DNA from: Centroberyx gerrardi
Lineage: Eukaryota; Chordata; Actinopteri; Beryciformes; Berycidae
Length of the DNA: 64,000 nucleotides
Assembly: GCF_048128805.1 (NCBI RefSeq)
Contig: NC_136015.1
Coordinates: 25,691,903 to 25,755,902 of the forward strand
Direction: 5' to 3'
Part shown: piece after piece, positions 4,651 to 61,977 of the stretch
How positions within the stretch are numbered: position 1 is the first letter of the stretch
How the letters are laid out: each line of letters opens with the position of its first letter
Program-made: the position numbers and the translations under genes
The notes under the pieces: model-generated
Told to the model about the DNA's origin: nothing
Databases searched by the model: none
The model's input: the letters and a program-made list of their open reading frames with translations, nothing else

Positions 4651-6275
4651 TATGGGATGGAAAATTAGCCAACAAGTTGAAAAAGTAATTTTTCATTTCA
4701 TTGTGACTTTCCCATAGGATATTAAACGCGGATTTACCAACAGCTGAATGAAATACACACACACTTCCATGGTTCACATCTTTTCTCTTTGGGTTGTTGA
4801 AAGGCATTTTGGGAAATGTAGGAAATCACTAACTAAAGTAGAAAGCCTGGATGAGGCAGGCTGAAGAAAAGGTAAATCAAAAAAAGTTAATTAGGCTACA
4901 ATCACAAAATAAATCCTTGAATGCACCTGAACATCACAGATTGCCGATATATAACAGTGTTAGACTATCAGAGGGGGATTTCCCCTTTAAGTTAACAAGT
5001 TTTGTTTACCTAAAGTGTGACCAAGTCAACTTTGCTCAAGTCCCAAGTCAGTCTCAAGTCTTGAGGCACAAGTCTCAAGTCAAGTCCCAAGTCTAAATGT
5101 AGATTACCAAGTCAAGTCAAGTCCATGTCATTAATGTCAAGTCTCAAGTCTAACTGTAGAACAGCAAGTCAAGTCAGAACAAATCAAGAGTCCAGTATCA
5201 ATTTAATATCTTAAAGAAAACTAAATATCTAGGACTTTTCAATGCAATATGGTTTTAATAGAATAAAAACTACAAAACACCAATATTAAAATGGAAAATA
5301 TAATGAAGGAGGAACCTGTTCTGAATAACAACACAGTACCGAGGCTGCGAGCGGAAAGGTAAACAATGCAGCGGAGTTCCGAGAAAAGAAGAGGTTGGAG
5401 GGAAACAATGTCAGCGGATTATTGTTTCCGGATCCATACAGTTTATTTATTTTTTATATTAGGCTATTATCATCATTATTAGTATTAGTATTAGTATTTG
5501 TATTGGTAGTAGCAGTGGTAGCAGTAGTATCATTAGGAACTACTGGGGACCAGCCCATTAAACCTCCTTGGGGAAAAACTGCAAACAAAGCAGCAGAGCA
5601 GCTACGACAAAAAGGAATAACAATATTCAGGCTCAGGCTATTATATTATAAAGTATGTGGAATCAGAATCCATTGAAAATTGCTAATGATAATAATAATA
5701 ATAATAATAATTCTCAATTGCTGTTCAATACAGTGGCGTCCCGGAGTGTCATTGCCATATTTCCCAGAATGCCGTGCAGCATTCATTGTACAGCACTTAT
5801 AAATTGTGTCAATTACGTTATGGGAATGATTTGGTTAAAGTTGTTATTGTTGCGTTGGCTGCTACACAGGGTATGTGAAACTGACATAGTTTAGTTGATG
5901 TTAGGTAATGAGCACCATGAATGTGAGAGGTAGGTTCAAAAGTGACTTTCCTGCTGCGATTGTGAAACAGTGGGAGTGTTAAATTATACTTTGTGTGTGA
6001 CTAATGTTGAGAAATTATGTTAAAAATCATACGTACTCCTTTTAGTCTGGGGTTAACTGCAGTTTGTTACAACACTGCATCTGTGCTCAACTAATCTACC
6101 ATAGGTAAGTAAGGGCTAAATAATCTATAATTAAAGATTAACAGCAATATGGCATTCATGTAATTCTTGTCCTTGTTATTTCCTGTAATCAATTCAAGTG
6201 TTCTTTGACTGCATGAATTGTGAAGGCTGAGCGTGGGGATTATTCTGCCCACTGAGAGTCATTTAAACAAAAATA
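4643..6275. other. Non-coding stretch with low-complexity DNA
   Basis: No gene is recognised. It holds a degenerate AAGTC/TCAAGTC tandem run at about 5030-5180, ATT/GTA-rich sequence at 5455-5540 and an AAT microsatellite at 5688-5712. The short reading frames here show no recognisable protein. Confidence 0.6.
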
Positions 6276-6340
6276 TTCATAGAAACACAACTGATTTAAT
6301 GAAAGGGTCTTTATTGTCTTAGCATAAAAAGAATAACAGT
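6276..6340 (-). pseudogene. Relic of an IgL constant-gene 3' UTR
   Basis: About 60 bases match the DNA around the poly(A) signal downstream of C2 and C3: a CAACTGATTT motif followed by CTTTATTGTCTTA, which is an AATAAAG signal on the minus strand. No constant exon remains to its right. It indicates that a further J-C cassette once lay here. Confidence 0.5.
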
Positions 6341-6641
6341 ATTTGTAAGAGACAGTGTGCGTTTGCTCTCCTCGTTTCCACAGGTTTCACTACTGAACCA
6401 TAGAAACAGAAAGGCTTCATTACTGGAAATGAAGATGAACATGTTTGTTACTGAAATAGTTTTGCAAATGCACTTAATTAATCATAGTGCCACTGTATGT
6501 AGTTTAAATTGTATATTGATATTATATGATATTTATTGCGCTACTGAAGACAGTTCCCATAATGACAAATACATTTATGACCTTAAGAATGACAATTGGC
6601 ATGTTTGGTCAGCAGGTCATGCATTGTTCTATGTTATACAA

Positions 6642-7095
6642 GGTAGGCCCTCTTGACGTGAATACATATGCAAATTAGTTGAAATTCAGAATTTTCTAAA
6701 CTTAACTAAACTTAATAAACCCAAGCACATTGTGATTACATGAAAGCAGATATATTACGGTTGATAACATAACAACCCTCCTACCATTATCATGAATGCA
6801 AATTAGTTTAAATCATGAATTTTATGAACTAAATAAACCCAAGCACATTTTGATTATATGAAAGCAGATATATTGTGGCTGATATAATAAAGGCCCTCTT
6901 ACCATTATCATGAATGCAAATTAGTTTAAATCATGAATTTTCTAAACTTAATAAACCCAAGCACATTTTGATTACATGAAAGCAGATATATTACGGTTGA
7001 TAACATAACAACCCTCCTACCATTATCATGAAAGCAAATTAGTTCAAATTCTGAATTTTATGAACTAAATAAAACCAAGCACATTTTGACCTTTC
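6642..7095. repeat. 118-bp tandem repeat with octamer motifs
   Basis: About 3.7 copies with a 118-bp period; the word AAGCACAT occurs at 6723, 6841, 6959 and, partly, 7077. Most units carry the exact immunoglobulin octamer ATGCAAAT (6668-6675, 6796-6803, 6914-6921). The fourth has AAGCAAAT at 7032. A further partial unit appears near 7118-7160. The array lies between the first IgL cassette and the lipoxygenase gene. Confidence 0.85.
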
Positions 7096-7629
7096 AAATA
7101 AGTTTAGATTTTGCTAGACCCTGCGATTACATGAAAGCTGATATATTATGGTTGACTGAAACTGTGACAGAAAAAAAATGGTCCAATCATGGACATGGAA
7201 GAAAAGTGATCAAACTGAGCCACTTGGTCACTCTCTTTATTGAAGTGGTCCGTGTCTTCTCCCTCCTCATGTTGTGTGAATGATGAGACGTCTCTCTCCA
7301 GATGGACTGCAATGACAGAAAATGTGAAGTCACATGACAGGGATTGTTGTTGTGTGGCAACAGCAATACGCACTTGGATCCAAGCCAGACCAGGTAATTC
7401 TGTTAAGTATAAATCACAGTCAAAAAGTTTGGAATATGGTTAAATGACATGGTTTTTGAAATGCATAATGCTTTCAAAGTGAAATAAATGAATGTCTGCT
7501 CTTACAGGAAGACGATAATGAAAAAAGAAAATTAGCAAGAAATGAGACAGATTCTGAAGATGTTCACAAAGGTCTTCAATACAAGTTTAACAGAAATTAA
7601 GCTGTGCTTGCCTGTGTCCTCAAGCTCAT

Positions 7630-17434: not shown

Positions 17435-17467
<33 letters not shown>

Positions 17468-18909
17468 CACTGAAAAAAATCAGGCAGTATACTGGAGCGG
17501 GCATAAACAGAGATGTCACTTCAAATTATCAATCAGACAAAGTAGAAGTCCGTGAACTGACTAGACCCCACTTCCTGGGGACTTGTCAGGTATTTAGTTA
17601 TTAGTGGGGTCAGCATATACACACTATCTGGCTTTTCTGTCTTCCTGAGTACCACTTAACACACATTCAGGTTAAACTTACTTTGTAGAGCCACTTAACA
17701 CTTATGACTGGTGAGTGCCAAGATATTTGCTGGAGCTTAATTTCTGTACAACACAATTATATTCCATTTCTGAGTACTGATCAGGTTTAAATAAATATTT
17801 AGGCCAGTAGAGTATTATATTATTAGTCAACATGCTGTGACACCTGCACGGATGTAGTGCACCAGAAGTGTCCCTCTCATTAGTGAACTGTTTCCACTCT
17901 CCTTCGGTCAGAAAATAGGTCCCTTTCTCCAGGATGTCTGAGCTTGTTTGTGATTATTACAATTTCAATGCTACCATATGAAACCCAGTATTAAACGCAG
18001 ACAAAGGTATCACCATTAAGGTCAGCATTATTACAGGAGTCCCATGTTGGGACCAAACCACTCGTGTAGCATCTTACCCTAGCTATCGTTGTTGTATACC
18101 AGCAATAGGTTAACCTAGCAATTATGAGTGCTTGAAACTTGTTCTATTGACATCCTTACTGTACCGACAGCGATATATTGTTGTTTCATCTTCTTCTGAC
18201 AAATGTACTTACTGTAAGTCGCTTTGGACAAAAGCGTCTGCTAAATGCCCTACATGTAAATGTAGTGGGGGAGTGGTTAGGGGTGGAGTTAACCAGCTAT
18301 TGTTCCCACCCATTACCTGCCTGTGAGAAGTGTGAAAAAGCTCTAGATCTTTGAGGGGGATTTTCTCTGCTACTTGATTTTAGGTGTACCAACATTCAAA
18401 TAAGCATATCTTCTTCAAATATTTTCAGATTTCAATGTATGACATCATTTGAAAGCTTACAATAATCTGCACTTTCATAATCTGTAAAAAACTGAAAAAT
18501 GACCTCGCCCTACTTGGGAACGAAAACACCAGACGCTGTCACATTTTACCAATTTCAGTATTTTTACTTATTTTTTCAAGTTCTTGCACAGCTACTTGAG
18601 TGTAGACAACATTCTACATTTGAGAACTTCTTAGTTAAATGAACAAAACACAGGGTTCCCACGGACACAGATCAAGGTTAATTACTGTTACAACACTGAG
18701 AATTTTTATAATGAGCTGTGCTGTGTTACAGTGATGGCAGACTATGTGGTCTCTTGCCTTCTCTAACACAAATATATGAATTCAAGCACTTCCAATGACC
18801 CATGTCTATTTATGCCTATTTTCAAAAACTTTCAAGGCCTTGATTATGACCCGTGGGGACCTTGTAAACATGCGACACAACAAGCATAACAGGTGCCAAC
18901 AGGACAGTT
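17160..18909. other. Intergenic DNA, part 2, with a SINE-like tail
   Basis: No gene is recognised. The words TAGGGATGTGCAGAGAG (17160) and GTCGCTTTGGACAAAAGCG (18217) belong to dispersed fish repeats. The second is a common SINE-type 3' tail at about 18205-18265. Confidence 0.5.
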
Positions 18910-21900
18910 TTAAACTTTGTTCTTGAGAGCTGTGATTCGATTCTTAATGTAGAATTTAATGGCCAGCCAATTTCTGTTTTTAAGTGCTACTTTCTCCAGT
19001 TCAAGGCAGTTATCACAGTCACTTTTCCCTGGAACACGGCATGAAGTGATGAAGGATATCATGTGCTTCTCGACTGCAAGGATCTCTTCTTCCTCCCACA
19101 TCCTTCTCTTGAAAGGTTGGCGACCTGTACAGCAATTAACACAAACAAAGAATGTGGCACTCAAACATTACTTATTTTTGAGCAGTCAATCTTGAAAGAG
19201 CATACAGTAACAAAGTTTGATATCAAATAGAGGAAGTGCATTTTGTTCAAATTGTAAATTTCAATATAAAATTAAAATATCTAAAAACTTTACCTTTTTC
19301 CCTTTTTCGTGACTTGCGATGACGGCTGATGATGATGGCTTGTGGAGGTGTCATGGTGTCCTGCTTTGGTGCTGCATCGCTATGACTCACATCTGGCACT
19401 GTTGTCTCATTCTCTTCCCTCTGACTAGATGACACCTGACTCTCTGAAAACCAGAAGAAAACAAATTACAAAAAAATAACAATTATGAAGTATTAGTCAT
19501 ACGACAGTAAATTAGAGCCGTCCTGAGACAATCCTAAGTATCGGTATCAGGGCCAATCCGGGCATTTTTTAATGGATCGGCACTGGCTAAAATAAAGCCG
19601 ATCAAAATCTGATCCTTTCTTAACTGTACTCTAGTGTGTTTCTTTACTGTACTCTACTGTGTTTTGTCCACCTCAGTCTGCTAGTGTTGCAACACTGCTC
19701 TTCTTTACAACAGCCGCGCTGTACAGTACAACATTTCACTGCATATGAAAGTGAAAACTACAGTGTGTGAATGTGAAAAATTCTTTGGGCGCCCCGGTGA
19801 GTTAACCTGACGCGCCAGATGGTTTGTTACACAGAACCATCTGGGAAGTCGTCCTTTGAAACTGTTTGGAAAAGGGCAGGCACTTTCAAAAAATACCTGG
19901 CAGGTGATTGGATGAACCATCTGTCCATCACCGTCTATCACCTAACTACAACCAATCCGAAGACCAGCCGAAGAGGAAACACAACAACAAGCCGCAGTCT
20001 GAGGAACTTTGAAAGCTAGCAAGCACGCTGATTGGTCCGAACCACTGTGGCTCGGCCACAAGCGCATAGATTGAAGCTTGGCAAGATGGATTCTCGCTCT
20101 CGCGAATCCAGCTGCCTCACAAGGTTACTGGTGAGCGACTGAGTTCTGACACTCAACCAAAGATTATTTTGTGAAGTAGCTCCACTCTGAAACACCACTG
20201 TACAGTCAGAGTGGACTGAGTGTTTCTGTAGTTCCAACAAGGTGTGAGACGTCTTCGATATAGCTGATCGTGTCATGTCAATTTCAGGAGTGGCATTCCC
20301 CAAGTTAATCACTCATTTATATCATATCAGTAATTTAAGTTTATCAACTTAAGCTTTTTGAACCAGGACCTTCAGTATTTGGATCAAGTAGCTCGTGAAC
20401 AATAAGGTGTGTCAGATTTTGTATCTACAGATGTTATTTCAATGTTTCAGATACATATTAAATCAATATTTAGGAAAATATAAGTATCAGATTGGACTCA
20501 ATATCAGCAGATAATATTAAAGGGAAAAAAAGCCTTGATCGGAACATCCACATAGTAAATGGACAATTTTGTGGTTATCCTTGAATACATAAGCATGGTA
20601 AGATTTAGGACCATATGAAAATACTTACCTTCTAAGTCTGACTCACACACTGCCTCAGGGTCGCTGTCCAGGTGCACATTATCTGTGAAGGGTTGGAAGA
20701 GGGGAGGGAGGAGAATGACTGTTAGTGAAAGCAGAATGCAATTCATTTGATCCTGACACACTCCAATAATGCCTAAGAAAAACATGTATGACATGTATAA
20801 ACTATTGTTTAATCACTTTAGATAAGCAGATTTTCTTTTACCGTAATTTCCGGACTATTGAGCGCACCTGAATTTAAGACGCACCAACTAAATTTAGAAA
20901 GAAAAACAAATGTGTACATATACAGGCCGCACTTGACTATAAGCCGCAGGTGTCCACGTTGCAACGAGATATTTACGGTACACAGAAAGATGATACACAG
21001 AAAGATTTTTTAAATTTTTACTTACCGTATATTAATTTTTACTTACTGTAGGACGTGCCGTCCTCTTCATCACGCAGCAGTCCAGCCTTTCGAAACCCGT
21101 TGGTGATCGTGGATTTTTTCACACTGCTCCACGCTGTCAGGATCCACTGGCAGACGTGAGCAAAAGTTGCTCTTCGCATGCGACCAGTTTTGGTGAATGA
21201 TTTCTCGCTGCTAGTCATCCAAGCCTCCCACTGAACTCGTAGTGCCACTTTAAATGCATGATTCACACTGATGTCGAGTGGCTGCAAATTCTTCGTTGTG
21301 CCCCCAGGAATCACAGCTGGAATTGATTTGGCCTCTTGATGGCTGCTTTCACAGAATCTGTTATATGGGCCCTCATGCTGTCCAAAACGAGCAATGCTTT
21401 TTTTCTGTGAAAAAATCCTCCTCGTCGCTTGCCATAGCACTCCGTCAGCCATTCCTTCATTACACTTTCTATCATCCACCCTTTCCTGTTGACTTTCACG
21501 GCGATGTCTTTCGGGAGTTTTTCTTTTGGCATAGTCATCCGCTTAAAAATCACCATTGGTGGAAGCTTTAGTCCGGATGCTGTGCAGCTCAGAACACAAG
21601 TGAAATGCGTTCTCTCATGGCCAGTTGTTTTCAACGTGATGGACGATTCACCTTTCTTGTTAACAGTCCTAGTGAGAGGCAGGTCAAACGTCAAAGGGAC
21701 TTCATCCATATTTATGATCTCGTCCAGTCCGATGGAATTTTCGGCTATCTTTGTTTGTGTGAATTTGCGGAAGTTTGTAATTTTTTCCTCGTAGTCGGGA
21801 GGGAGTTGCTGACACAGAGTCGTCCGCGCCCTGATGGACAGGCCTTTTCGTCTCATAAATCTGAGACACCACGATGGTCCACCTCTAAAATCTTCAATCT

Positions 21901-24900
21901 TCATTTCGGTGGCGATTGTTTTGGCTTTCAGTCGGATCTGCACGGTGGAAACACCTCGGCCGTCTGCTCTCTGTGTGTTCACCCAGTCTTCAAGAACGTT
22001 TTCAAGTTCAGGCCATCTGCTTTTATTACCTCTGAAAGCTTTTGTCGTCTTTTTGCATTGAGTCAGTTCTTCACGCTGCCGTCTCCAACGTCTCACCATT
22101 GATTCATTGATGCTAAGCGTACGTGCAGCAGCTCTATTTCCTTCTTTGATAGCCAGATCGATTGCCTTTAACTTAAAAGCTGCATCATATGCATTTCTTC
22201 GTGTGTTTTCCATAATGAGGGTGTGTGCATGAAACGAAAAATGGCTGTTCAAAATACAATTGCTGTTCAAAATACAACTAGCGTCTTCCTTGGTGCGAAC
22301 TGTCTGTCTCGCTCTTGCGCTTCCTGCTAGAGCGCCCCTGGTGGCCGTTAGCTTGTATTGGCCGCGGGGTTCAAAGCATGTGAAAAAAGCTGCGGCTTAT
22401 AGTCCGGAAATTACGGTATGTAGAAATCTGTGTAGAACAATTAAATTAGTACCATCGGGATCAATTCTGATGTCATCCAGGGTCTTGCCCTTGAATTCTG
22501 CCATGCGTCCCTGGTCCAGAGCCATGAGAAGTTTGCTAATTTTGGCAAGTTGGAGGGTGCCCTCAGGAAGTCTGTAGAACTGCCGGTGCACTCTAATATC
22601 ATGGCCAAGAAAATCAGCTAACTGATCCAGCTCTGTATTACTGAGGTTGAGAACTTGAGACAGGGTTCCTGTTTGTTTGCGTAGTTTTGTAGAAGTGAGA
22701 CTTTCAGGAGTTTTTGCACCACAGACCTTGGCAAAGTGTCGAAGGCAATCAGACCCACGGTAGCAAGTCAAAGCGGATGGTCTTGCAAATAAGTATATGT
22801 TCTCCAGAGGAACCCCACTTTCCTGCCGTTTGCTGACGAGCAGATCCAATGTTTTCTGCATTGCTGGGGTCAAAAGCACAGGAACTTTTCTTCCCCTTTT
22901 TCCTCTTATCTCTATCCTCCTGAAATGCTGACAGAGTTTCTTCTCTAGATCTGAGAGGGCTTCATTCACATCTTCCTGTGGGTCTGATGGATTTTGAGAT
23001 AAATAAGCAGAAAGGGGAATTTTGGACACCTCCCCAGCTCTTCGTCGGTTGAACAAAATGACTTGTGTCAAAATTACCTTTGCCAGCTGTGTCCATGTCT
23101 GGGGGGATGTCTCTGTGGACAATTTACTGTGAAAATCTTGTTGTTGCACATCTAAATAGGAATGGAGAGTCTGGACATCTTTTGTGAATGGAAGCAACAG
23201 AGGAGTATTCCACTTGGACTCCTGAAGTGTTCTCAGTGATGCAGCTGATATCATTTCATTCCATCTGGTTTCATACACTCTGCGGAATGTACGAGCATCT
23301 TTTGCTGCACTGTGGTTGCTCTGTACATTTGCACGGCTTTCAGCAAGCATTGTGTCCAATTTTGAGAGCTAGACTTGGGCACCTGTATGCTTTGGTTTCA
23401 CTGTCATAGCCTGCCAGGTGTTTCACTGCTTGCACAACATGCATAAAATTGGCAGGTTTGATGTGATCTTGAATGGTCTTCAAGGGAGTGGTTTTCCTTG
23501 AGCATATCAGAAGCCTTCCCAGCTCTCTCAATTTCTGACGAATGTATTCATGTTTGCCAACATCATATCCAAGCCTGTTATACAGATGCTCACCATACTC
23601 CATGATACAGACATCAGATTTGACTAAAGAATATACTTCATCTTGAACCATGTTGTTTAGCAGCTTCCAAAATTCTACCATGACACCAGGTGGTGGAGGT
23701 ACAGCAAATGCGCAGAGGGCCTGGACACGTGTTTTGCCATGTTTTTGTGGAACACCAGGCTTGAACTTGCAGATCTTCATGTGCCTCCAAAGGACTTTCT
23801 TTGTGAAGAAGCCTTGGCAATATACACAATGCAGGAAATTCTGTGCTTGAGAATCCTGTTTTGGTTGCTTGCGAGGAACAAGATTTCCAACACCAGTATT
23901 TAATACCTCAACATTGTGTGCAAAGTTGCCCCTATTTCTCAAATGTTCCATATGCAGTCGTCTTTCTTTGGAGCCTTTTGGGAAGGACAGAGCCTGTGCA
24001 ACCTCTGGCTTATTGTGATGAGCACGCTCCAAATGCCTTGCCATTTTTACAAGTCCCAACTTGTACCAACAGTACAAACAATATTGCTTTTTGTTGTACA
24101 TTCTTGACCCATTCTTCTTTTTACAGACAGCAGGTATGGAAAGCGAACCATCAGCCACTCCATCTACTGTAAGGAGGGAAGAGGCACTGTCAGGAAGATT
24201 TTGCTCCCGATCAGGTGTTGAGTTTTCTAACAGGGCTCCAGTGTCTCCCCCTCCACACTGTTTTGTTGAATGACCACTACTTGTTCGTGTTGTAGGGCAG
24301 GATACACTGCTTAAACATCGCCTTTTACGTCTCATACCAGAGTTGTTTCCTTTTCTTGAAGGTGAGCATCCTCTGTTGCGCATTTGCTTTGAAGAGGCAT
24401 TGTTCAGTTCTGTCAGTGAGAGACATCTATCTCTGACGTCAGCCATCTTCCCTAAGTTTGGAAATCTGAGCATGCTCTCTTTCTGGTCGAATGGGTCAAT
24501 AGCTTCGCTTGTGTCTGTATCTTCAGAAGAATCCTCACTACTCTTAGGAATATATTCCTCTCCACTGTCGTCTGAGGTGAGGTCAAAAAGCTCATCTGAA
24601 TCAAAATCAATCTGTCTGTTCATCTTCAGAAAAGAAAAAGTAAATTCAATTAAAGTCAGCACACTGATTAAACATTTGCTATGCACAGTTTACTTAACAC
24701 AAGATGCAAACTATCAGTAAAGAAATGTTAAGCACATGCATTAATCTCTACATTGTGTGTGTTGCTTACCTGTATGCTTTTGGTCCTCCTCAACCTTGGA
24801 ATAGAATCTCTGTCCTGGTCGGTGAGGCTAAGTTGAGACTCAGAAGTCAGACTCCATGTCTAGAGTGTCCAAAAGATATGTAATTTGCATTTGTACCAAT

Positions 24901-27601
24901 GTACAAAAAGAACACATGTAAATGCTCAAAAAATGTATTAACATCACAATACCTGGCAGCTTGAATTAAACTGGGTAGGACTCGTGCATGGACTCTGAGA
25001 TTCGTCAGAATCGGTGTAGTCTACAAGGGAAGGCTTCATTCCAACATTGTTTGTTGGAGGAAGGGGTTCTGGTTCATCTGAGCCCTATAGAAGATCAAAG
25101 AAATAGTGAAGAAATAATATATGAATGACAACACACATACACAAATGTATACATATGTACATAAACTGGCATTTAAAAAACTTTGGAATCACCAAGACAT
25201 TTTCATATTTTTCAAAAAAAGTAATTAAATTGATTTAAATATATAGCGAAGACATTACTTTTCTTAAGAATTGCTATTAAAGCTGGAAATGACAGATTTA
25301 TAGATAATTACTCACATAAAACTGCAAAATACCATTTCAGCAAACATTACCTTAGTGTCCAGATTAGAAATTAATTTGGCTTATACTTAACTGGCAGAAC
25401 TGAATGTACCTGTGACCAACAGCTGGTATGACTGGCTCTATTTACATGTTTCATGTATCTGACTCAAAATCTAAGCAAACATTGCACATATTTGACTAAA
25501 ACTTCAACAAGTAATTAAACAGAAGAGGCTTAAAAACTAAAGTATGAACCAGTGAAAGACAGGAAAAAAAATTCAGACAAAAATTAGTACCTGCATCTTG
25601 GAGGATGAAGATCTCTCAGGAGTCTGCTCTGTTGTTCTGGAGATGTCAGCCTCGAAAGACTCAGTGGCATTCCACTGTCCTTCAACCTGAAGAATGAGTT
25701 CAACATTATTATTGAGTAGATGGTCAGCATTAAGAATAATAACCATAAGCAGTTTCAAAAAAGGTCCAAAAGAAAACTGGTGGTCTTAAGACACTTTGGG
25801 GCAAGTCTAATATACACACAAATTTATCACATGTAATACATGTATGTACTCTATGTGTGTCACGACCGTGCCTCCCTCACCTGCCCTTTTGTGTCTGCAC
25901 CCTGCCATTTTCCATCTGACCCTTCCTTGGACTGTCTTTGTTTGGACTCTCTAGTTTGGATTTTTCGTTTTTTGGACTTTCTCAGTTTGGACTTTCTCAG
26001 TTTGGACTTTCTTAGTTTGGACTTTCTTAGTTTGGATTCGCTACCATCAGTGTAAGCCTTGGTTTTGTTTTCTTTGTAAATCTGTGAACTGTTCCTGCCT
26101 GCCTGAGAGTCTGCATTTGGGTCCTTTCCCTCGTTGTCCCCAACCCTCACCTGTGATAATGTGGACATGTGTATAACACAACACCTAATGCCCAGAGCCG
26201 AAAGTTTCGACACACACCTCCACAAACAGATTCTTTTGATCTGTCTGCACTAATTCAAACCTGTTACTACATTGTTTAGACTGTATTTGGAAGCACAATC
26301 TTTGCAAAAAAATTACATTGTACAAGGCTCTATGTTTATGAAAGGCTGCAAAGTTATCCTGAACTAGGCAAATCTAGTCAGAGGCAGAAACACCAGTATT
26401 GGGTTAAATCTGAGAAAAAACAAATCTGCATCATTCTGATGTTCACATTTAAGCCAATATTCACAATCATTAATCTTTCTTTAACTGAATGACAGTTTTT
26501 CACACTGACATTTAGCAACTCATTTTTGACAAACCTGTTTCCTCCAAGGCCAATCAGTTCCACCATAGTCATACGTTATCTCTTCTCCTGCATTAATGTC
26601 CCTCAAAGCAAATAGACAGAGGTGTGGTTTGCCCTCTGTTATGACCCTCTTCATTTTGCAGTTTGGATGCTTGTGGTCATCATTAACTAGTCGTCCAAGG
26701 CTGCCATCTTCTCGAGCTGCATCAACACTTCAGAAAGGTAACAAATCACTGATTAGGCTTCATAAAATTAAATCACTGATTGTAATTTACCATCAGTCCT
26801 TAAGAAGAGAACTTCAGATACACAACACAGGCTACTTACTGATGGCTATAGTTGCTAACTAAATGACCATTTAATTATCACACATTTGTTTGAGATATGA
26901 AAAAACTCAATTGTTCAGAAATGTAAAATTCAATCTAAGCCTTACCACCATGTTTTTTCTTGCCAGTAGAAGTCAAACATGAAAACAACACATCTACTGT
27001 GATATGCCCTCCTCCTCCTTAGAGATTCTTCAGAATTTATTAATTCCCCTCTGTACTCCACCACAAAGTCTCCTTTTCTGAAATGGGCCTTGGCAAACAC
27101 CCCTCGACCTAGTGCACACACAGATACCACTACACTGTTGAAAGCTTTACAGTTATGTTATTTTTTAGTATCCCTAAAAGCTGCATATGCAGGAGCTATT
27201 TTTTTCATAAGACATCAATAACCACATGAAAGGATTAATAAAGGTTATAACTACAATAACCCCCAAAAAGTGAATAATAATTTTCTAGCTTTGGTTTGTG
27301 CATCCGCATCCAATCAGGCCACCAGACCAGAACTAATGTCATGCCCTAGTGTTGAGGATGGGAGAACAAAACGCAATGCCATTTCTATGCAACTTTCCAT
27401 TTCTTTTCTTTACTAAACCCCTGGGTACAAGTAAGAGGTAAGTTCTGCGAGAACAACAATGTATAATATAAACACACACACACACATACCTTTAAAAGAG
27501 TTAATGTATTGCACGTCCAAGTCTGCTGTCTTGTCCAGGACCTTGACAGCATGTTCTTCTGCATCCTGTAATGGTGGTTTCCTGCTTCTCCTTGCAGCCA
27601 T
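18910..27601 (-). CDS. SET-zinc finger-tyrosine recombinase-SANT fusion gene (frameshifted)
   Basis: I recognise no named gene. Coding exons from the 5' end are 27601-27490, 27108-26946, 26727-26535, 25686-25591, 25084-24953, 24859-24770, 24623-22453, 20682-20629, 19443-19294 and 19124-18910. All junctions agree in phase except inside exon 7. Exons 1-3 encode a KMT5A-like SET domain (GRGVFAKAHFRKGDFVVEY, CVDAARED, EEITYDYG). Exons 4-6 are acidic, serine-rich linkers. Exon 7 has a C2H2-like finger (YCLYCWYK..HLERAH), a C2HC-like finger (HCVYCQGF..HMKIC) and a tyrosine recombinase domain: Arg in RRRAGEVSK, KLRKQ, LGHDIRVHRQFYRL with the Tyr nucleophile. The last exon is a SANT/Myb-like tail (WEEEEILAVEKHM..KNRITALK). 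Such recombinases are the enzymes of Crypton transposons. Exon 7 is 2171 nt where phase demands 3n+1, so one base is in excess near 23345-23360. With that corrected the product would be about 1124 aa. It may be a domesticated gene, a decaying copy, or intact with a sequencing error. Confidence 0.8.
20841..22416 (-). mobile_element. pogo/Tigger-type DNA transposon
   Basis: A 1576-bp element with terminal inverted repeats beginning CCGTAATTTCCGGACTAT and ending ATAGTCCGGAAATTACGG, flanked by TA duplications (20839-20840 and 22417-22418). TA duplication and the encoded transposase place it in the pogo group of the Tc1/mariner superfamily. It lies in intron 7 of the SET-recombinase gene, only 36 bp past the exon 7 donor, in the same orientation. 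Confidence 0.88.
21039..22213 (-). pseudogene. pogo-type transposase, frameshifted
   Basis: The start MENTRRNAYDAAFKLKAIDL is a psq-type helix-turn-helix. It is followed by a CENP-B-like DNA-binding region and a DDE domain. The first aspartate is in IINMDEVPLTF and the second in LLVLDSMRAH. The third, in KNLQPLDISVN, lies in another frame, so there is a frameshift near 21310-21330. All three catalytic residues are visible, but the protein cannot be made as one chain. Frames on the opposite strand here are shadows. Confidence 0.82.
25945..26038. repeat. 15-bp tandem repeat in intron 3 of the SET gene
   Basis: About six units of TTTGGACTTTCTCAG or its TTAG variant. It reads as repeated SKLRK on the minus strand, but no splice sites support it as coding. 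Confidence 0.8.
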
Positions 27602-28047
27602 TGAAATCCTATAATTAAATACAGTGCAGTTTTAGTTATGTTAGACAACCAAATCTAGACCACTGGAGTGTTTGTCCAATGAATATGATGTAATCAGCGC
27701 GACAAAGTATTAAATGGCGGACACACGGGAGCTAACTAGCTAGTTAGCTAGCTAGCTAACTAAGCTATCCCGCTAGCTAGCTACTTCGCTAACGTTAACG
27801 TTATTTATTCTTCAGGTAGCTAACGTTATCCCTCAAGAGTAAAGAATATGCAATGCGCAAACTTTGTTGCTTTTTAACTTGTTTTAAACAGAACTACTCA
27901 TGTTATTTGTAAGAAATTATAATGTTTATTTTAATATTTTAATGTTAATTTAAGCTATCTGACTCATGTTCAGGTAAATGTGAGCTTTTACCAGGTAAAA
28001 AAAATGTTTCTTCATGATTTGACCACATGCTGCATTTCAATCATATC
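27602..28047 (-). promoter_or_regulatory. Presumed promoter region of the SET-recombinase gene
   Basis: This is the region 5' of the ATG at 27601. It holds a run of GCTAGCTA and TAACGTTAACGTTA words (about 27729-27825) that is strongly self-complementary. I see no TATA box. Assignment as promoter is by position only. Confidence 0.4.
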
Positions 28048-28787
28048 AACTGTTCAGTCTTCACAAGGAAGTGCCTATACCTCCCTATTCGGGAGTGAGG
28101 ACATTGTGCGTGTGTGTGTGTCTCATATCAGCATCACAAACACCATTTTCCAACGAAAATCTGTCATGCTTGGCAACAACTGAACCTGTTTCTGTGGAAA
28201 GAGCTCAAGTTGCTGAATGTCCCCGGTCAAACGGGAAATTATTTTCTGATATGAAATGTTATTGTCTTTTTTGTATGCAGAGGTGGAAAGTAAGTGTACT
28301 GTACTTCAGTACAGTTCTGGCACTTGAGTATTTCCATTTTGTGAGACTTTCTACTTTTTCCTCCACTACATTTATCTGACGACTGTAGTTACTAGTTATA
28401 TATAGTTATATCTATTAACTATATGTATAGATATATAGTTATAGTTATATATAGTTATATATATAACTAGTAACTATATGTATGGTTATATAGTTATAGT
28501 TATACATACTTATATAACTTTTAAACTCCTCAACAGTCCGTGGCGGCCGGCCCATTGGAGCGCAGTGGGCGGCGCACCAGTTGATTGACAGGCAGAAAAA
28601 ATATATATTTCTTTTTAAGATTTGGGGATTTTGCCTCTTAAATTGTGTTTAAAATATTAATAAAAGGTCCTAATCTTGTAAGTAAAATATTATGCTCTGA
28701 ATATGTGCTGGTACACTTTATAGACACTGACTGTCAGTTGCATTCTGAGACATGATGCTGTCGGGGCTCACTTGCTTGCATCCAAGC

Positions 28788-36793: not shown

Positions 36794-38098
36794 CCCTCCC
36801 ATCCATAGAACCCCCGCAAAGCAGCCGGGCCAGACTCTGTCTCTCCATCCACCCTGAAGCACTGTGCTGATCAGCTGTCTCCGGTGTTCACAGACATTTT
36901 CAACACCTCACTGGAGACATGCCACGTACCAGCCTGCTTCAAGACCTCCACCATCATCCCCATCCCCAAAAAGCCAAGGACCACAGGACTTAACGACTAC
37001 AGACCCGTCGCCCTGACATCTGTGGTGATGAACTCATTTGAGCGCCTTGTGCTGTCACACCTCAAAAACATCACTGACCCACTCCTGGACCCCCTGCAGT
37101 TCGCCTACAGAGCCAACAGGTCTGTAGACGATGCAGTAAACATGGCCCTCCACTTCATCCTCCAGCACCTGGACTCCTCAGGAACCTACGCCAGGATCCT
37201 GTTTGTGGACTTCAGCTCTGCCTTTAACACAATCATCCCGGCTCTGCTACAGGACAAGCTCTCCCAGCTGAGTGTGCCTGACTCCACCTGCAGGTGGATC
37301 ACAGACTTCCTGTCGGACAGGAAGCAGCACGTGAAGCTGGGAAAACACGTCTCTGACTCCCGGACCATCAGCACCGGTTCCCCTCAAGGCTGCGTTCTTT
37401 CCCCTCTACTCTTCTCCCTGTACACCAACAGCTGCACCTCCAGTCATCAGTCTGTCAAGCTCTTGAAGTTCGCGGACGACACCACCCTCATTGGGCTCAT
37501 CTCTGGTGGGACCCTGAGGCGAGCAGGAACGATTGTGGACGACCCCTCCCACCCTGGACACAAACTCTTTGAAAAACTCCCCTCTGGCAGGAGGCTGCGG
37601 TCCATCAGGACCAAAACCTCACGCCACAAGAACAGTTTCTTCCCGTCTGCAGCCGGCCTCATCAACAAGGCCCGGGACCCCCACTGACACGGACCCTTGC
37701 CCCCTCCCCCCATAGGCACCACACGCTACAGTAACCACAGTCTCCACATCTGACTCAATGCGTTCATTTACGCATTCTGTACAGTAAACATTCCTCTGGT
37801 CAATATTTTGCACATCCCTGCACTAACTGTACAGCTTTTCCATTTCACTTCAATAGCAGATACATTGCACATTTTTTTATTATATTTTTTCATATTCTGT
37901 ATTGTAAATATCTCTTTTTGTTTTTTATATTTATATTCTTGACTTTGACTTACAGTACTTGTTGTGTTTTTTTACTTCTACTTTCTATTTTTCTCCATGT
38001 TTATTGTATGCACCTACATACCAAGGCAAATTCCTTGTATTGTGAACTTTACTTGGCAATAAACCTGATTCTGATTCTGATTCTGATTCTGGTTCTGA
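36794..38098 (+). mobile_element. Rex1/Babar-like LINE, copy 1, 5'-truncated
   Basis: A non-LTR retrotransposon remnant. Its reverse transcriptase reads [42 protein letters not shown] and [14 protein letters not shown]. Its 3' end has AATAAACCTGATTCTGATTC, a tail I associate with Rex1. The frame (36884-37687) jumps from SGG to TLRRAG, losing 158 codons present in copy 2. It lacks the 5' half, so it is dead. The Rex1 label is from memory. Confidence 0.8.
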
Positions 38099-49044: not shown

Positions 49045-50819
49045 CCCTCCCATCCATAGAACCCCCGCAAAGCAGCCGGGCCAGACTCTGTCTCTCCATC
49101 CACCCTGAAGCACTGTGCGGATCAGCTGTCTCCGGTGTTCACAGACATTTTCAACACCTCACTGGAGACATGCCACGTACCAGCCTGCTTCAAGACCTCC
49201 ACCATCATCCCCGTCCCCAAAAAGACAAGGACCACAGGACTTAACGACTACAGACCCGTCGCCCTGACATCTGTGGTGATGAAGTCATTTGAGCGCCTTG
49301 TGCTGTCACACCTCAAAAACATCACTGACCCACTCCTGGACCCCCTGCAGTTCGTCTACAGAGCCAACAGGTCTGTAGACGATGCAGTAAACATGGCCCT
49401 CCACTTCATCCTCCAGCACCTGGACTCCTCAGGAACCTACGCCAGGATCCTGTTTGTGGACTTCAGCTCTGCCTTTAACACAATCATCCCGGCTCTGCTA
49501 CAGGACAAGCTCTCCCAGCTGAGTGTGCCTGACTCCACCTGCAGGTGGATCACAGACTTCCTGTCGGACAGGAAGCAGCACGTGAAGCTGGGAAAACACG
49601 TCTCTGACTCCCGGACCATCAGCACCGGTTCCCCTCAAGGCTGCGTTCTTTCCCCTCTACTCTTCTCCCTGTACACCAACAGCTACACCTCCAGTCACCA
49701 GTCTGTCAAGCTCTTGAAGTTCGCGGACGACACCACCCTCATTGGGCTCATCTCTGGTGGGGATGAGTCAGCCTACAGGCGGGAGATCGACCGCCTGGTG
49801 TCCTGGTGCGGACTGAACAACTTAGAGCTCAACGCTGTAAAGACAGTGGAGATGGTTGTGGACTTCAGGAAGAACCCGGCCCCACTCACCCCCGTCACCC
49901 TGAGAGACTCCCCAGTCGACACTGTGGAGTCCGTCCGCTTCCTGGGCACCATCATCACCCAGGACCTCAAGTGGGAGCTGAACATCAGCTCCCTCACCAA
50001 GAAAGCACAACAGGGGATGTACTTCCTGCGGCAGCTGAGGAAGTTCAACCTGCCAAAGACGATGATGGCGCACTTCTACACCTCCATCGTTGAGTCCATC
50101 CTCACCTCCTCCATCACCATCTGGCACGCTGCTGCTACTGCCGAGGACAAGAGCAGACTGCAGCGTATCATTCGCTCCGCTGAGAAGGTGATTGGCTGCA
50201 ATCTGCCTTCTCTCCAGGACCTGTATGCCTCCAGGACCCTGAGGCGAGCAGGAACGATTGTGGACGACCCCTCCCACCCTGGACACAAACTCTTTGAAAA
50301 ACTCCCCTCTGGCAGGAGGCTGCGGTCCATCAGGACCAAAACCTCACGCCACAAGAACAGTTTCTTCCCGTCTGCAGCTGGCCTCATCAACAAGGCCCGG
50401 GACCCCCACTGACACGGAGCCTCGCCCCCTCCCCCCATAGGCACCACACGCTACAGTAACACACAGTCTCCACATCTGACTCAATGCGTTCATTTATGCA
50501 TTCTGTACAGTAAACATTCCTCTGGTCAGTATTTTGCACATCCCTGCACTGACTGTACAGCTTTTCCATTTCACTTCAATAGCAGATATATTGCACATTT
50601 TTTTATTATATTTTTTCATATTCTGTATTGCAAATATCTCTTTTTGTTTTTTATATTTATATTCTTGACTTTGATTTACAGTACTTGTTGTGTTTTTTTA
50701 CTTCTACTTTCTATTTTTCTCCATGTTTATTGTATGCACCTACATACCAAGGCAAAATCCTTGTATTGTGAACTTTACTTGGCAATAAACCTGATTCTGA
50801 TTCTGATTCTGATTCTGAT
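49045..50819 (+). mobile_element. Rex1/Babar-like LINE, copy 2
   Basis: Nearly identical to copy 1 but without its internal deletion. One frame (49135-50412) covers the reverse transcriptase with [20 protein letters not shown] and the C-terminal region to a stop. The 5' half (endonuclease) is missing, so it is not autonomous. It ends with the GATTCT repeat tail. The intact frame suggests a fairly recent insertion or duplication. Confidence 0.85.
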
Positions 50820-53520: not shown

Positions 53521-56500
53521 CATTAGACTTGTATAGCACTTTTCTAGGTACTCAAAGACGCTTCACATACAGGGTAAAATCATTTAATAGGTACATTTAT
53601 AATAATAAAAAAATAAAAGACAAGAATAAAAGTAGGTTAAAAACTAGAGGAATCATGAGATGGAGGGAAGGGAGAGGAGGTTAACAGGTGAAAGCAAGCT
53701 TGAAGAGATGGGTTTTGAGGGCCTGTTTGAAAGATGGTAGGGTCTTAGCCTGTCGGATGTGGATGGAGAGGGCGTTCCAGAGGGAGGGTGCAGCAACTGA
53801 AAAGGCCCTGTCACCCCAGGTCCGGAGCTTGGTCCTGGTGGTCTTTACAGTGGTTGCGTCCGCGGACCTGAGGCATCGGGTAGGGGTGTGGCGGGGGATG
53901 AGGTCGGAGAGGTATGGAGGGGCCAGGTTGTGTATGGCTTTGTAGGTGGTGAGTAGTATTTTAAAGTCAATCCTATATTGAACCGGGAGCCAGTGGAGGT
54001 CGTGAAGGACAGGGGTGATGTGATCTCGGCGGCGGGTGGAGGTGAGCATGCGGGCAGCGGGGTTCTGGACATATTGAAGTTTATTAAGGGTTTTGTTAGG
54101 TAAGCCGTAGAGGATGCTATTGCAGTAATCGAGTCTGGAAGTTATGAGGGCATGGATAAGTGTTTCGGCAGCGGCAAAGGACAGGGAGGGCCGGAGGCGG
54201 GCAATGTTCCTGAGGTGGAAGAAAGCAGTTTTTGTGACCTGGTTGACATGAGGTAGAAATGAGAGGGTGGGATCAAGGATGATTCTGAGGTTGCGGACCT
54301 GGGTGGAGGGGGTGACGATGGAGCCATCGATGTTGAGTGAGAAGGTCTGGGCGGAGCGGGTGAGGGAGTTTGGGCCGATGATGAGGATTTCGGATTTATT
54401 GCAGTTGAGTTTGAGAAAGTTCCATTGCATCCATGATTTTATGTCTGCAAGGCAGGTGGTGAGGGTGGAGTGGGTGGTTGAGGTGATGGTCTTGGAGGAG
54501 AGGTAAAGTTGAGTGTCATCGGCGTAGCAGTGGAAACGGAGGCCATGTCGGCGGAGGATCTGTCCAAGAGGAAGGATGTACAGGATGAAGAGGAGGGGAC
54601 CAAGCACTGAACCCTGGGGGACACCATGGGTGACTGGGGCGGTGGAGGATTTGCAGTTGTTTATGGAGATGTATTGATGTCTATCAGAGAGATATGAGGT
54701 AAGCCAGGAGAGGGCGGTGCCGGTTATGCCGAGGGAGTGTTGAAGGCGTGTGAGGAGGATGGAATGGTTGATGGTATCAAAGGCGCCGCTGAGGTCAAGG
54801 AGGATGAGGATGGTGAGGAAGCCAGAGTCAGCAGAGAGTATGTCGTTGGTGATTTTCAGTAGGGCAGTTTCAGTGCTGTGTTTGGAGCGGAAGCCAGATT
54901 GGAAAGGTTCATAGAGGTTATTGGAGTCGAGGTGGGATTTGATTTGAGCAGCGACAACTCGCTCAAGGATTTTGGACAGAAAGGGGAGTTTGGAGATGGG
55001 CCGGTAGTTGTTGGGGATGTCAGGGTCAAGACCAGGTTAAGGATTCTTTATAAATGCTACGATGGACCTCAAGTCCAGATTTTCTCCACTTCCTTTCTGC
55101 TGCTCTACATGTTCTCTTGAGCTCACGGACAGAGTTATTTATCCATGGTGATATTTTGCCACTTAAACTCTTTTTGACCTTGAGTGGGGCCACTTTGTTC
55201 AGTGTATTACTCAGATTGTTACTGAAAGCATCATCCATTTCATGTACTGACCCGTTTATATGACATGAGTCCAATTCTCTTACAAGCTCTGAGAACTCAA
55301 GTTCTGCTGTTGCATCTCGGGACCGCTTTTGAACAACAATTTCTTTCAGCCTGTTCATTTAGCCTGTTCCTAGTCAAAACAGGAATGGGGCCAGCAAGAA
55401 CACGGGGTCCCGGCTTGATATGGGAGCAGTCACGGGTGCCATCTCTACAGCAGCAGGGACCCTAAACATATCAGTTATGTTTTCTGGGTTTGATATCAGC
55501 ACTGTTGGCTCGACACACAGTACTTGATGCAGCCTGTGAGGATAAACGCCAGGGAAGAGGAAGTGGGGGGGGGGGAGGCTGTTGTGGTGGTGTCTTGACC
55601 GGGGGGAGAGATGGAGCTGGGGGGCACAGCTTTGAGTGTGGAAGGGTGCTACATAGGAAGGAGCGGGCAATGGGTCGGGGGGTGAGTTTGATCCCAGCAT
55701 CAACGAGTTCTTCCATTTTGTCGGTAAACCCTAGATGAGCGCCGGTGGGAGAAAGGATTAGGAAAGGGGGGAGGATGATCTGGAGGACTGGAGAGACTGG
55801 GGCCGACAGTTGTTGTCCAACGGCTCTGGCAGGTCACATGGAATATCTTGGCTCTGAGAGTGCTGCTGATCTGTTTGTTGTGGATAGACAGGAGGCAACT
55901 CAGTGTGGTTGACCTTGGGCTGCTGATATCGGGACTTCAGCGCATTAGGGCGGCGGGCAGATGGGAAGATTCCCCATTAGTAGTTTCTTCCCAAATCTGT
56001 TTGGATGTAGGCCATCAGGTTTGAAAAGGTTTTTGCGTGAAATTATCAGTAATGTTCAGTCCTTTTGAACTGCACGATGTGGAAAGCCATGAGTTCAGTG
56101 CTAGGAGTCTGCTGAACTTGTTGATTCCTCTGTCCACTGTTGGTAGGGGACCACTGATAAATGATTGCATCTTTAGTGCCGACATGCCCTCATTTTCTAA
56201 TTCATGCAGATATTGTAAAGGTTCAAACCTGTTCTCCAGTCAGAAGGTTGATAGTGACTGCAGTCTCTGATTTTTTGCATCTTTAGTTGTCTGTCTGCTG
56301 GTGCAGGTGCCCGGTGTCGAATGAGCTGGCTTCCTTAGCTGTGTTCCATGCTGGACTACGGTTCTGCTTTTATTCTTGGGCTTTGCGCCAAACTTGTGCC
56401 AGCAGTTAGTATTCTCTTTATTCTCAGAGGCTTCCCTTGTACTGGTTCACTTTTACCAAGCTTTGGAAAAGTTATAGTATCATTTATACACAATTCTTCA

Positions 56501-60460: not shown

Positions 60461-61977
60461 TAGGGTTGGTCATGCCTTTGTAGCTGCCACGCTCACTCCT
60501 ACTGTCAGCCCTGCTGACTCAGTTTCGAGCACTGGTCCTCTCCCCCAGACACCCTCCACTTCTCCTTCCAGCCAGTGCAGGAGAATGAGGTGCTTGGGGA
60601 GCTGCTCAAACTGGATCCTTATAAATCAGCTGGGCTCGATGCTCTAGACCCTTTCTTCTTGAAGTTACTGGCTCATATTATCTCAACTCCCATCACCTGT
60701 CTGTTCAACCTCTCCCTGCAGACCTATGAATTCCCCCAGGACTGGAAATCTGCTGCTGTCATCCCACTCTTCAAGGGAGGTGACAAGTTAGACCTCAGTT
60801 GTTACAGGCCCATATCCATCTTGCCTTGCCTCTCCAAAGTCTTTGAGAAATTGGTCAACAAACAGCTCACCCACCACCTGGAGTCCCACAGTATTCTCAC
60901 CATCATGCAGTCTGGCTTTAGAACCGGCTATGGGTGTGTCTCTGCAACACTTAAAGTGTTAAACGACATCATATGTGCCATCGACAGCAAAGAGTACTGT
61001 GTGGCTGCATTTATTGACCTGGCAAAGGCTTTTGATTCTGTGGACCACTGTATCCTGCTTGACAGGCTCAAGGACATAGGATTCACAGAGGAATGTCTGG
61101 CATGGTTCAACAGCTACTTCTCTGGTCGTGTACAGTCTGTGAGAGCTGAGGGTTTCCTGTCTGACACACTGTCCCTGTCCATGGGTGTCCCTCAGGGGTC
61201 CATTCTAGGTCCAACCCTATTCAAGATCTACATAAATAATGTTGCTCATGCTGCTGGCAGCTCTCACATCCACCTGTATGCTGACGACACCATTTTGTAC
61301 ACATCCAGCCCCTCCCTGAACACTGCCCTGACTTCCCTGCAGCACAGCTTCAACAGTATCCAATTTGCCTTCTCCAACCTTCACCTTCTGCTAAATACTA
61401 AAAAAACAAAATGCATGGTCTTCAACCGGAACCTACCCCAAGTCGCCTGCCCCCTCAAAATCTCCTCCCTGGATGGGTCAGAACTTGAATTCGTCAACTC
61501 CTATAAATACCTGGGTATCTGGCTCAACAGTTCACTCTCCTTTCAAACTCACATCAACACACTGCTCTCCAAAGTCAGAGCAAGAATTGGTTTCCTGTAC
61601 CGTAATAAAGCATCTTTCACCCATTCTGCAAAGCACACCCTGGTTAAGATGACCATTCTCCCAATCCTGGATTATGGCAACTTAATCTACAGGATTGCCC
61701 CCAAAAACCTTCTCAGTAAACTGGACGTCATCTACCACACTGCCATCCGCTTTGTCACCGGTTGCTTTTGACTTCTGGTCCATAGTACATAGATTTTTGT
61801 TGTTGTATATACTGTATATATTGTGATGTCTTAAATTTGACTAATGTTGTTATGTACTTGCTGTATTTATGTGTTAATGTCTTGCACCGACTTGCCTTCT
61901 GTTTCTGCCTCTTGGCCAGGTCGTCATTGTAAATGAGAATTGGTTCTCAATTGACTTATCTGGTTAAATAAAGGTGA
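60461..61977 (+). mobile_element. Non-LTR retrotransposon with an intact RT frame
   Basis: The frame 60575-61771 encodes a reverse transcriptase: [47 protein letters not shown] and HLYADDTILYTSS, then a C-terminal region ending at a stop. The 3' end reads GGTTAAATAAAGGTGAAG. It is 5'-truncated and has replaced about 30 bp of the V 3' flank block (compare 2590-2625). The clade is uncertain, jockey- or I-like by eye. Confidence 0.85.

Follow-up and report, generated by a model that had tools for sequence, protein, structure and literature searches.

A probable Crypton-like transposon encoding a KMT5A-like SET domain and a tyrosine recombinase in Centroberyx gerrardi

The stretch of 64,000 nucleotides (nt) of Centroberyx gerrardi DNA analysed here (contig NC_136015.1, 25,691,903-25,755,902; hereafter the window, with coordinates given as window positions) carries a locus of 10 exons on its minus strand. 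This locus is very probably a decayed copy of an autonomous DNA transposon, in which a SET domain and a tyrosine recombinase share the only long gene. As read from the sequence, the gene of the element runs from a KMT5A-like SET domain through a variable repeat of a 32-amino-acid (aa) module and zinc-finger-like motifs to the tyrosine recombinase and a conserved C-terminal tail. The element is Crypton-like, and its new features are the unexpected SET domain and the apparent CA-microsatellite target. The first-pass annotation of this DNA had envisaged an unusual chromatin factor or a domesticated transposon; instead, the locus appears to be a broken copy within a repeat family that moved recently and has nine other near-identical copies.

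A dispersed family of near-identical copies

A search of the same genome (779 megabases in 278 contigs) with the recombinase protein returned 45 matches, the window copy included. Nine further copies, located on contigs C2, C4, C6, C8, C14, C16, C19, C104, and C149, show 99% protein identity (query residues 6-307) and possess open recombinase frames of 768 aa in eight cases and 770 aa in the ninth. A second family, 58% identical, comprises five copies with 737-aa frames, and the other 30 matches are partial or more distant. At the DNA level, the main blocks of the nine copies share ~96-98% identity with the window copy, in exons and introns alike (blastn), and the C14 copy agrees with the other eight at 99.3-99.8% across 7.5-8.9 kilobases (kb). 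A tenth site, the second on C16, is known from its ends alone, which lie ~15.9 kb apart with exon 1 present; none of the 45 recombinase matches falls there. As these nine near-identical copies and the tenth site are dispersed, they represent a mobile family rather than a single-copy host gene.

The copies differ in length chiefly because of an array around exon 4. A tandem unit of 790 base pairs (bp) holding exon 4 and its splice sites occurs three times in C14, four times in C8, and at least five times in each of the other seven copies, and the elements measure 11,360 bp (C14), ~13.8 kb (C16 and C19), and ~14.6 kb (C2 and C6). With each unit, the protein would gain one more 32-aa module of nearly the same sequence.

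The copies could also be viewed as a host chromatin factor, that is, a SET-recombinase fusion domesticated from a transposon, maintained by the host, and duplicated. Introns, a conserved coding frame, and the substitution pattern described below would suit such a factor, as would a distant relative on C10 (L038), whose 852-aa frame has lost recombinase residues as could fit domestication. However, the explanation is highly improbable in view of the nine dispersed copies and the tenth site, their sharp ends inside (CA)n with unrelated flanks, and the broken state of the window copy itself. A domesticated gene should be a single, fixed, non-mobile copy under constraint, and the family is not of that kind. 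L038 (C10:4167304-4177303, positions 4884-7439) has lost the LGH box of the recombinase and goes on into two tail-like domains, and from its sequence it is itself a candidate domesticated host gene.

In the second family (L031-L034), the copies are ~99.9% identical over up to 12.8 kb and still identical at the edges of the fetched stretches, so that their ends lie beyond. Two of them sit on C10 in opposite orientation, ~6 kb apart, and a 400-bp tandem array upstream of the recombinase exon parallels the exon-4 array.

One gene from the SET domain to the recombinase

The gene can be read intact in the copy on C8. A single frame of 1,223 aa, closed by its only stop, reads through 13 exons, from the SET domain to the recombinase; exon 4 is present four times, every internal border is GT-AG, and all phases match. 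The C14 copy has no such read-through, owing to a 41-nt deletion in exon 1. SET exons 2-3 are 99-100% identical to those of the window in C8 and C14, the two copies where they were reached, while the fetched stretches of the remaining seven ended within the exon-4 array. Moreover, exon 1 adjoins the right end in all nine loci with a 100% right-end match (C2, C4, C6, C8, C14, C16, the second C16 site, C19, and C149). Contig C149 runs out after 191 of the 200 right-end bases, and the C104 stretch stops short of the right end and the SET exons.

In the window copy, the junctions are GT-AG at all nine borders. Splice phases are consistent up to exon 7 and, if its two frames are both used, after it. 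The first frame of exon 7 is open from 24623 to 23343 and meets a stop at 23342, whereas the recombinase part lies in a different frame, open from ~23370 to 22453. These open runs of 427 and ~305 codons exceed the maximum of 272 in 2,000 first-order Markov simulations, so both frames are regarded as relics of coding sequence. The break is a 17-nt deletion which none of the nine other copies carries, and a sequencing error is an unlikely cause. By its sequence, the window copy is thus unable to encode the full protein in one frame. An internal intron skipping the frameshift was also considered, and 292 GT-AG choices would restore the frame; it is needless, as a plain deletion relative to 9/9 copies explains the break. 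Therefore, of the ten phase-matched exons in the first-pass annotation, the exons and their GT-AG borders hold, but the continuous frame does not, the deletion having gone unreported there. Likewise, the fusion of SET and recombinase in one gene, which that annotation had claimed for this locus, can be read in the intact C8 copy, whereas the window copy is frameshifted and truncated.

The same exons might instead be divided between a SET gene and a neighbouring recombinase gene, the latter opening at the ATG with which exon 7 exactly begins, and a stop met directly past exon 3 would permit a SET-only product. This arrangement is improbable, given the single frame of C8 with correct phases and splice sites and the behaviour of exons 4-6, which are short, rich in serine and acidic residues, all of phase 0, and retained at 95-100% in 9/9 copies.

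Two smaller parts of the protein had also been named before. The zinc-finger region gives only weak Pfam matches (0.059 to 5.1), all below the cut-off, while the C..C...H...H/C spacing is mostly preserved among relatives. The SANT/Myb-like reading of the tail finds no support, since the protein of exons 9-10 matches no Pfam family at E<=10.

Element ends, target sites, and a model of integration

The readable ends of the element are constant and lie in CA tracts. The left terminus, complete to within one base, is common to seven sites and is preceded by a CA tract in all six readable copies (C14, C6, C16, C2, C104, and C19); the left ends of C4, C8, and C149 fall in runs of N and are not readable. 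The right end continues into a CA tract in 8/8 readable loci, the tract being interrupted in C19, and a right end on C11 with 75% identity also adjoins a TG/CA tract. CA is always on the non-coding strand at readable ends, and the outer flanks are unrelated, with similarity in 0/15 left pairs and 0/28 right pairs. As background, (CA)n/(TG)n runs >=8 cover 682 of the 64,000 window bases. Furthermore, the termini form an imperfect inverted repeat with a score of 44, compared to a best score of 32 in 1,000 shuffles. The arm AAAGACAA pairs with TTGTCTTT, which adjoins the CA tract, and CTGTCAGGTGT pairs with ACACCTGACAG, which is located further inward.

Judging from these ends, recombinase-driven insertion at CA tracts is likely, and Crypton-like integration into CA microsatellites would be the most likely mechanism. 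The recombinase would excise the element as a circle, with a junction made of a (CA)n core flanked by the inverted arms. With the termini placed end to end in the circle, this core would lie between them as in a recombinase site with two arms and, in line with the model put forward for Cryptons, would then recombine with CA microsatellites of the genome.

Segmental duplication by recombination between CA microsatellites, without transposase activity, would be another way to spread the locus, as the terminal (CA)n tracts might serve as starting points for ectopic recombination and the window is rich in (CA)n. However, duplication of this type is expected to bring flanking DNA of varying length, whereas the copies share constant termini on both sides, inverted terminal arms, CA on the same strand wherever an end was readable, and a recombinase of their own. 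Segmental duplication is therefore highly improbable.

Compared to the other copies, the window copy is shortened at both termini, by ~76 bp on the left (3') and by ~1 kb on the right (5'); out of a left-end query of 163 bases, it matches bases 77-159 only. An immunoglobulin light-chain (IgL) unit starting at 28049, and again at 31914, begins at the end of the transposon copy. Because the unit begins where the copy ends, the 5' end of the element was probably lost through IgL rearrangement.

Probable identity of the C-terminal part as a tyrosine recombinase

Sequence relationships point to a divergent tyrosine recombinase in the C-terminal part, and family-level comparison places it, though weakly, in the tyrosine recombinase superfamily. 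RRRAGE, GKRGRK, KLRKQ, and LGHDIRVHRQFY align with phage-integrase columns and supply, in this order, the catalytic residues Arg, Lys, Arg, His (LGH), and Tyr. These boxes are kept in the relatives L033 and L035 and partly lost in L036, L037, and L038. A profile of six family members compared to a profile of 12 phage integrases yielded a probability of 69, a score of 37.7, and an E value of 4.4e-5 for one target, whereas 200 column-shuffled six-member alignments reached at most a probability of 1.56 and a score of 20.1. Additionally, L035 matches the Pfam family Phage_integrase (PF00589) with an E value of 2.8e-4 and 21.1 bits, which is below the curated cut-off of 27.1 and is the only match among seven family members.

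Apart from this shortfall, several results weigh against the assignment. The window recombinase alone finds nothing in Pfam, NCBIfam, and the PDB, and no integrase family in PHROGs. On the profile of 12 phage integrases, the window protein scores 7.0 bits, equalled by 23 of 20,000 shuffles, in contrast to 56.6-155.4 bits for true integrases left out of the same profile. When the catalytically dead sixth member is dropped, the family comparison falls to a probability of 20.7, a score of 29.0, and an E value of 0.0011, and a family profile search of PDB sequences returned no recombinase. The first His of the R-H-R-Y tetrad is replaced by Thr in the window copy, C14 (L026), L033, L035, L036, and L037, and by Ser in L038. 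A single-sequence AlphaFold model of the recombinase was discarded because of its low confidence (predicted local distance difference test, pLDDT, 38.9).

A regular expression for the catalytic boxes was not relied on. Among 20,000 shuffles, its loose form had 818 matches and its tight form 21, while of the 12 integrases they recovered 9 and only 5, respectively. No relatives were detected in IMG/VR (protein scans and a DNA pattern) or in bacterial and archaeal genomes (one scan). The first-pass annotation had spoken of a Crypton-type recombinase. Crypton is a fair label for the mode of action, resting on features and not on phylogenetic placement, but the first His of the R-H-R-Y tetrad given in PMC3212892 is replaced by Thr in the seemingly active copies.

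The SET domain: identity, age, and selection

The protein of exons 1-3 matches Pfam SET with an E value of 1.3e-23. Among solved structures, its best relatives are KMT5A/SETD8 (1.2e-28), followed by one other protein at 7.9e-19 and the next families at ~1e-16, which bears out the earlier description of the domain as KMT5A-like. The NHS motif of SET domains belongs to the cofactor/substrate site. In the element this motif reads NDD, with ND(D) aligned to NH(S), and catalysis by the SET domain is therefore uncertain. L036, a relative with ~41% recombinase identity, retains a decayed SET exon (51% identity) with the same VNDD motif. Since L036 shares it, NDD looks like a family trait and not decay, and the joining of SET to the recombinase seems to predate the present burst.

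Selection on the coding sequence can be traced by comparing the window copy with C14, in which coding positions 1+2 differ at 14/2217 sites and noncoding positions at 71/4827 (p 0.002). Within the SET domain, positions 1+2 changed at 0/284 sites (C14) and 1/312 sites (C8).

On the side of the counter-evidence already set out for the recombinase stand the NDD motif itself and the constraint on the SET domain, which is not significant alone in the C8 comparison (1/312 versus 79/4812, p 0.09). To these are added exons 8-10, which show no constraint pattern between window and C14 (4/279 at positions 1+2 versus 1/140 at position 3), and the second family, in which no SET domain and no (CA)n run >=7 was found in the stretches fetched (10 kb each for the SET domain). 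Nor was any transcript, circle, or empty site observed.

Some of these points would also suit SET exons that are a captured passenger with no role in the life cycle of the element, the recombinase alone being important: the absence of SET from the fetched stretches of the 58% family, the change from NHS to NDD, the p value of 0.09, and the deletion in exon 1 of C14. Against a passenger speak the decayed SET exon of L036, which makes the pairing old, and the near absence of changes at positions 1+2, and this explanation is rather unlikely. An active SET domain that helps the element is a tentative proposal, with the balance somewhat against it. At the donor or the target site, such a domain would methylate a histone or some other protein of the chromatin and thereby favour expression or integration; by family resemblance, its target would be lysine 20 of histone H4 (H4K20).

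Features of the window copy and its surroundings

The coordinates of the window copy are listed in Table 1.

Table 1. Features of the probable transposon copy and adjoining sequences in the window
Feature	Position	Strand	Remarks
Window copy of the SET-recombinase transposon (probable)	17464-28049	-	From blastn against other copies; exceeds the 10-exon span
(AC)n tract adjoining the left end of the element	17436-17466	.	From Tandem Repeats Finder (TRF) and end sequences
Exon 1	27490-27601	-	Start ATG; N-terminal flank of SET
Exon 2	26946-27108	-	Part of SET domain with GRGVFA and FVVEYRGEL
Exon 3	26535-26727	-	Part of SET domain; RLVNDDHKHPN replaces NHS motif; YDYG
Exon 4	25591-25686	-	32-aa module, single copy in the window
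Exon 5	24953-25084	-	Acidic/serine-rich linker
Exon 6	24770-24859	-	Linker
Exon 7	22453-24623	-	Zinc-finger region and putative tyrosine recombinase; 17-nt deletion near 23353
Two CxxC...H(H/C) zinc-finger-like motifs	23742-24110	-	From sequence
Recombinase catalytic boxes (predicted)	22574-23047	-	From profile alignments
RRRAGE	23030-23047	-	Catalytic box
GKRGRK	22886-22903	-	Catalytic box
KLRKQ	22673-22687	-	Catalytic box
LGHDIRVHRQFY	22574-22609	-	Catalytic box
Exon 8	20629-20682	-	
Exon 9	19294-19443	-	
Exon 10 and stop	18910-19124	-	Conserved tail
pogo/Tigger-type transposon in intron 7	20841-22416	-	From Pfam HTH_Tnp_Tc5 and DDE_1, and terminal repeats

The pogo/Tigger insert is not a part of the element, as it occurs in the window copy only and is absent from 9/9 others. 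It has identical 20-bp termini (TACCGTAATTTCCGGACTAT), and its transposase is divided between two frames. A match to the UnaL2 RNA family, representing the 3' end of a long interspersed nuclear element (LINE), lies at 18201-18254 in the 3' region of the element, within the block aligning to other copies.

The surrounding window is an immunoglobulin light-chain cluster, with V and C frames read by eye. From 1813 to 63849, V frames (+) and C frames (-) are arranged in duplicated units. A self-comparison of the window yields repeated IgL units and no second SET-recombinase gene. In addition, LINE-type reverse-transcriptase frames, identified by eye from translations, are present at 36809-37684, 49060-50409, 53684-55036, and 60518-61768.

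Significance and comparison with known systems

If the interpretation is true, a transposon carries a gene in which a chromatin-writing domain is joined to the recombinase of the element itself, and its choice of target or its escape from silencing becomes directly testable against histone modification. The eukaryotic tyrosine-recombinase elements, which are poorly known, would also gain a site-directed class that enters CA microsatellites in one orientation. In the full-text literature, with subscription journals mostly outside, nothing was found on Cryptons together with SETD8/KMT5A, or on KMT5A, a SET domain, and a tyrosine recombinase together; as this coverage is partial, the element may be catalogued elsewhere. 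Two reviews mention Crypton and tyrosine recombinase as well as SET domain and methyltransferase, but as unconnected subjects in their available sections.

Among known fusions, SETMAR is a host fusion of a SET domain to a mariner transposase. It resembles the present element in joining SET to a mobility enzyme, but here the fusion itself is mobile and the enzyme is a tyrosine recombinase. The DIRS/Ngaro retrotransposons combine a tyrosine recombinase with a reverse transcriptase, and some carry a methyltransferase-type domain. They differ from the C14 element, whose only frame above 150 aa is the 768-aa one; the frames of at least 100 aa in C14 are this recombinase frame and four of 101-147 aa. 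Compared to KMT5A/SETD8, the SET domain of the element is located at the extreme N terminus and not at the C terminus, is fused to a recombinase, is mobile, and has NDD for NHS as well as other differing pocket residues.

A closer parallel may exist in other animals. Hydractinia has up to 65 KMT5A-like genes, Hydra 24, and sea urchin 61; in most of them the SET domain is N-terminal, and the longer ones have C-terminal ends conserved between hydrozoans and sea urchin with E values below 3e-43 (PMC10368294, available sections). The expansion is patchy, because Nematostella has a single KMT5A gene (PMC10368294, same sections). Many dispersed and divergent copies, an N-terminal SET, and a long conserved C-terminal part are features shared with the present family (PMC10368294, as available); in contrast, these genes are described as H4K20 methyltransferase genes, and the comparison with the element is by description only. 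In the available part of its main text, recombinase, integrase, crypton, and transposase occur 0 times (PMC10368294). By analogy, such expanded long KMT5A genes in Hydractinia and in sea urchin may themselves be elements of this kind. The broader proposal has a chance slightly short of even: SET-recombinase transposons would be an old animal class that supplies its own histone-modifying domain and inserts in CA microsatellites, and the many 'H4K20 methyltransferase' genes turned on in Hydractinia and sea urchin embryos would be members of it and not host regulators. If true, it would offer an alternative reading of the hydrozoan and sea urchin KMT5A expansions, in which methyltransferase expression at genome activation is transposon expression.

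The nearest known system is the Crypton. Cryptons are known in fish and sea urchin, a circular intermediate has been proposed for them (PMC3212892, available sections), and they account for 0.9% of the zebrafish genome (PMC9341512, available sections). The terms SET domain and methyltransferase occur 0 times in the available sections of PMC3212892. The likeness includes a DNA element with a tyrosine recombinase as the sole mobility enzyme seen and direct repeats, here CA units, at both ends (PMC3212892, as available). The present family is likewise a multicopy mobile DNA element with a tyrosine recombinase and, in the C14 copy, no frame of reverse-transcriptase size. The (CA)n at both ends fits a Crypton, but the imperfect inverted subterminal arms are a point of departure. 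Finally, the element differs from Cryptons by its SET domain, its ten exon types, its insertion in (CA)n, and the Thr that it has where the first His of the tetrad is expected.

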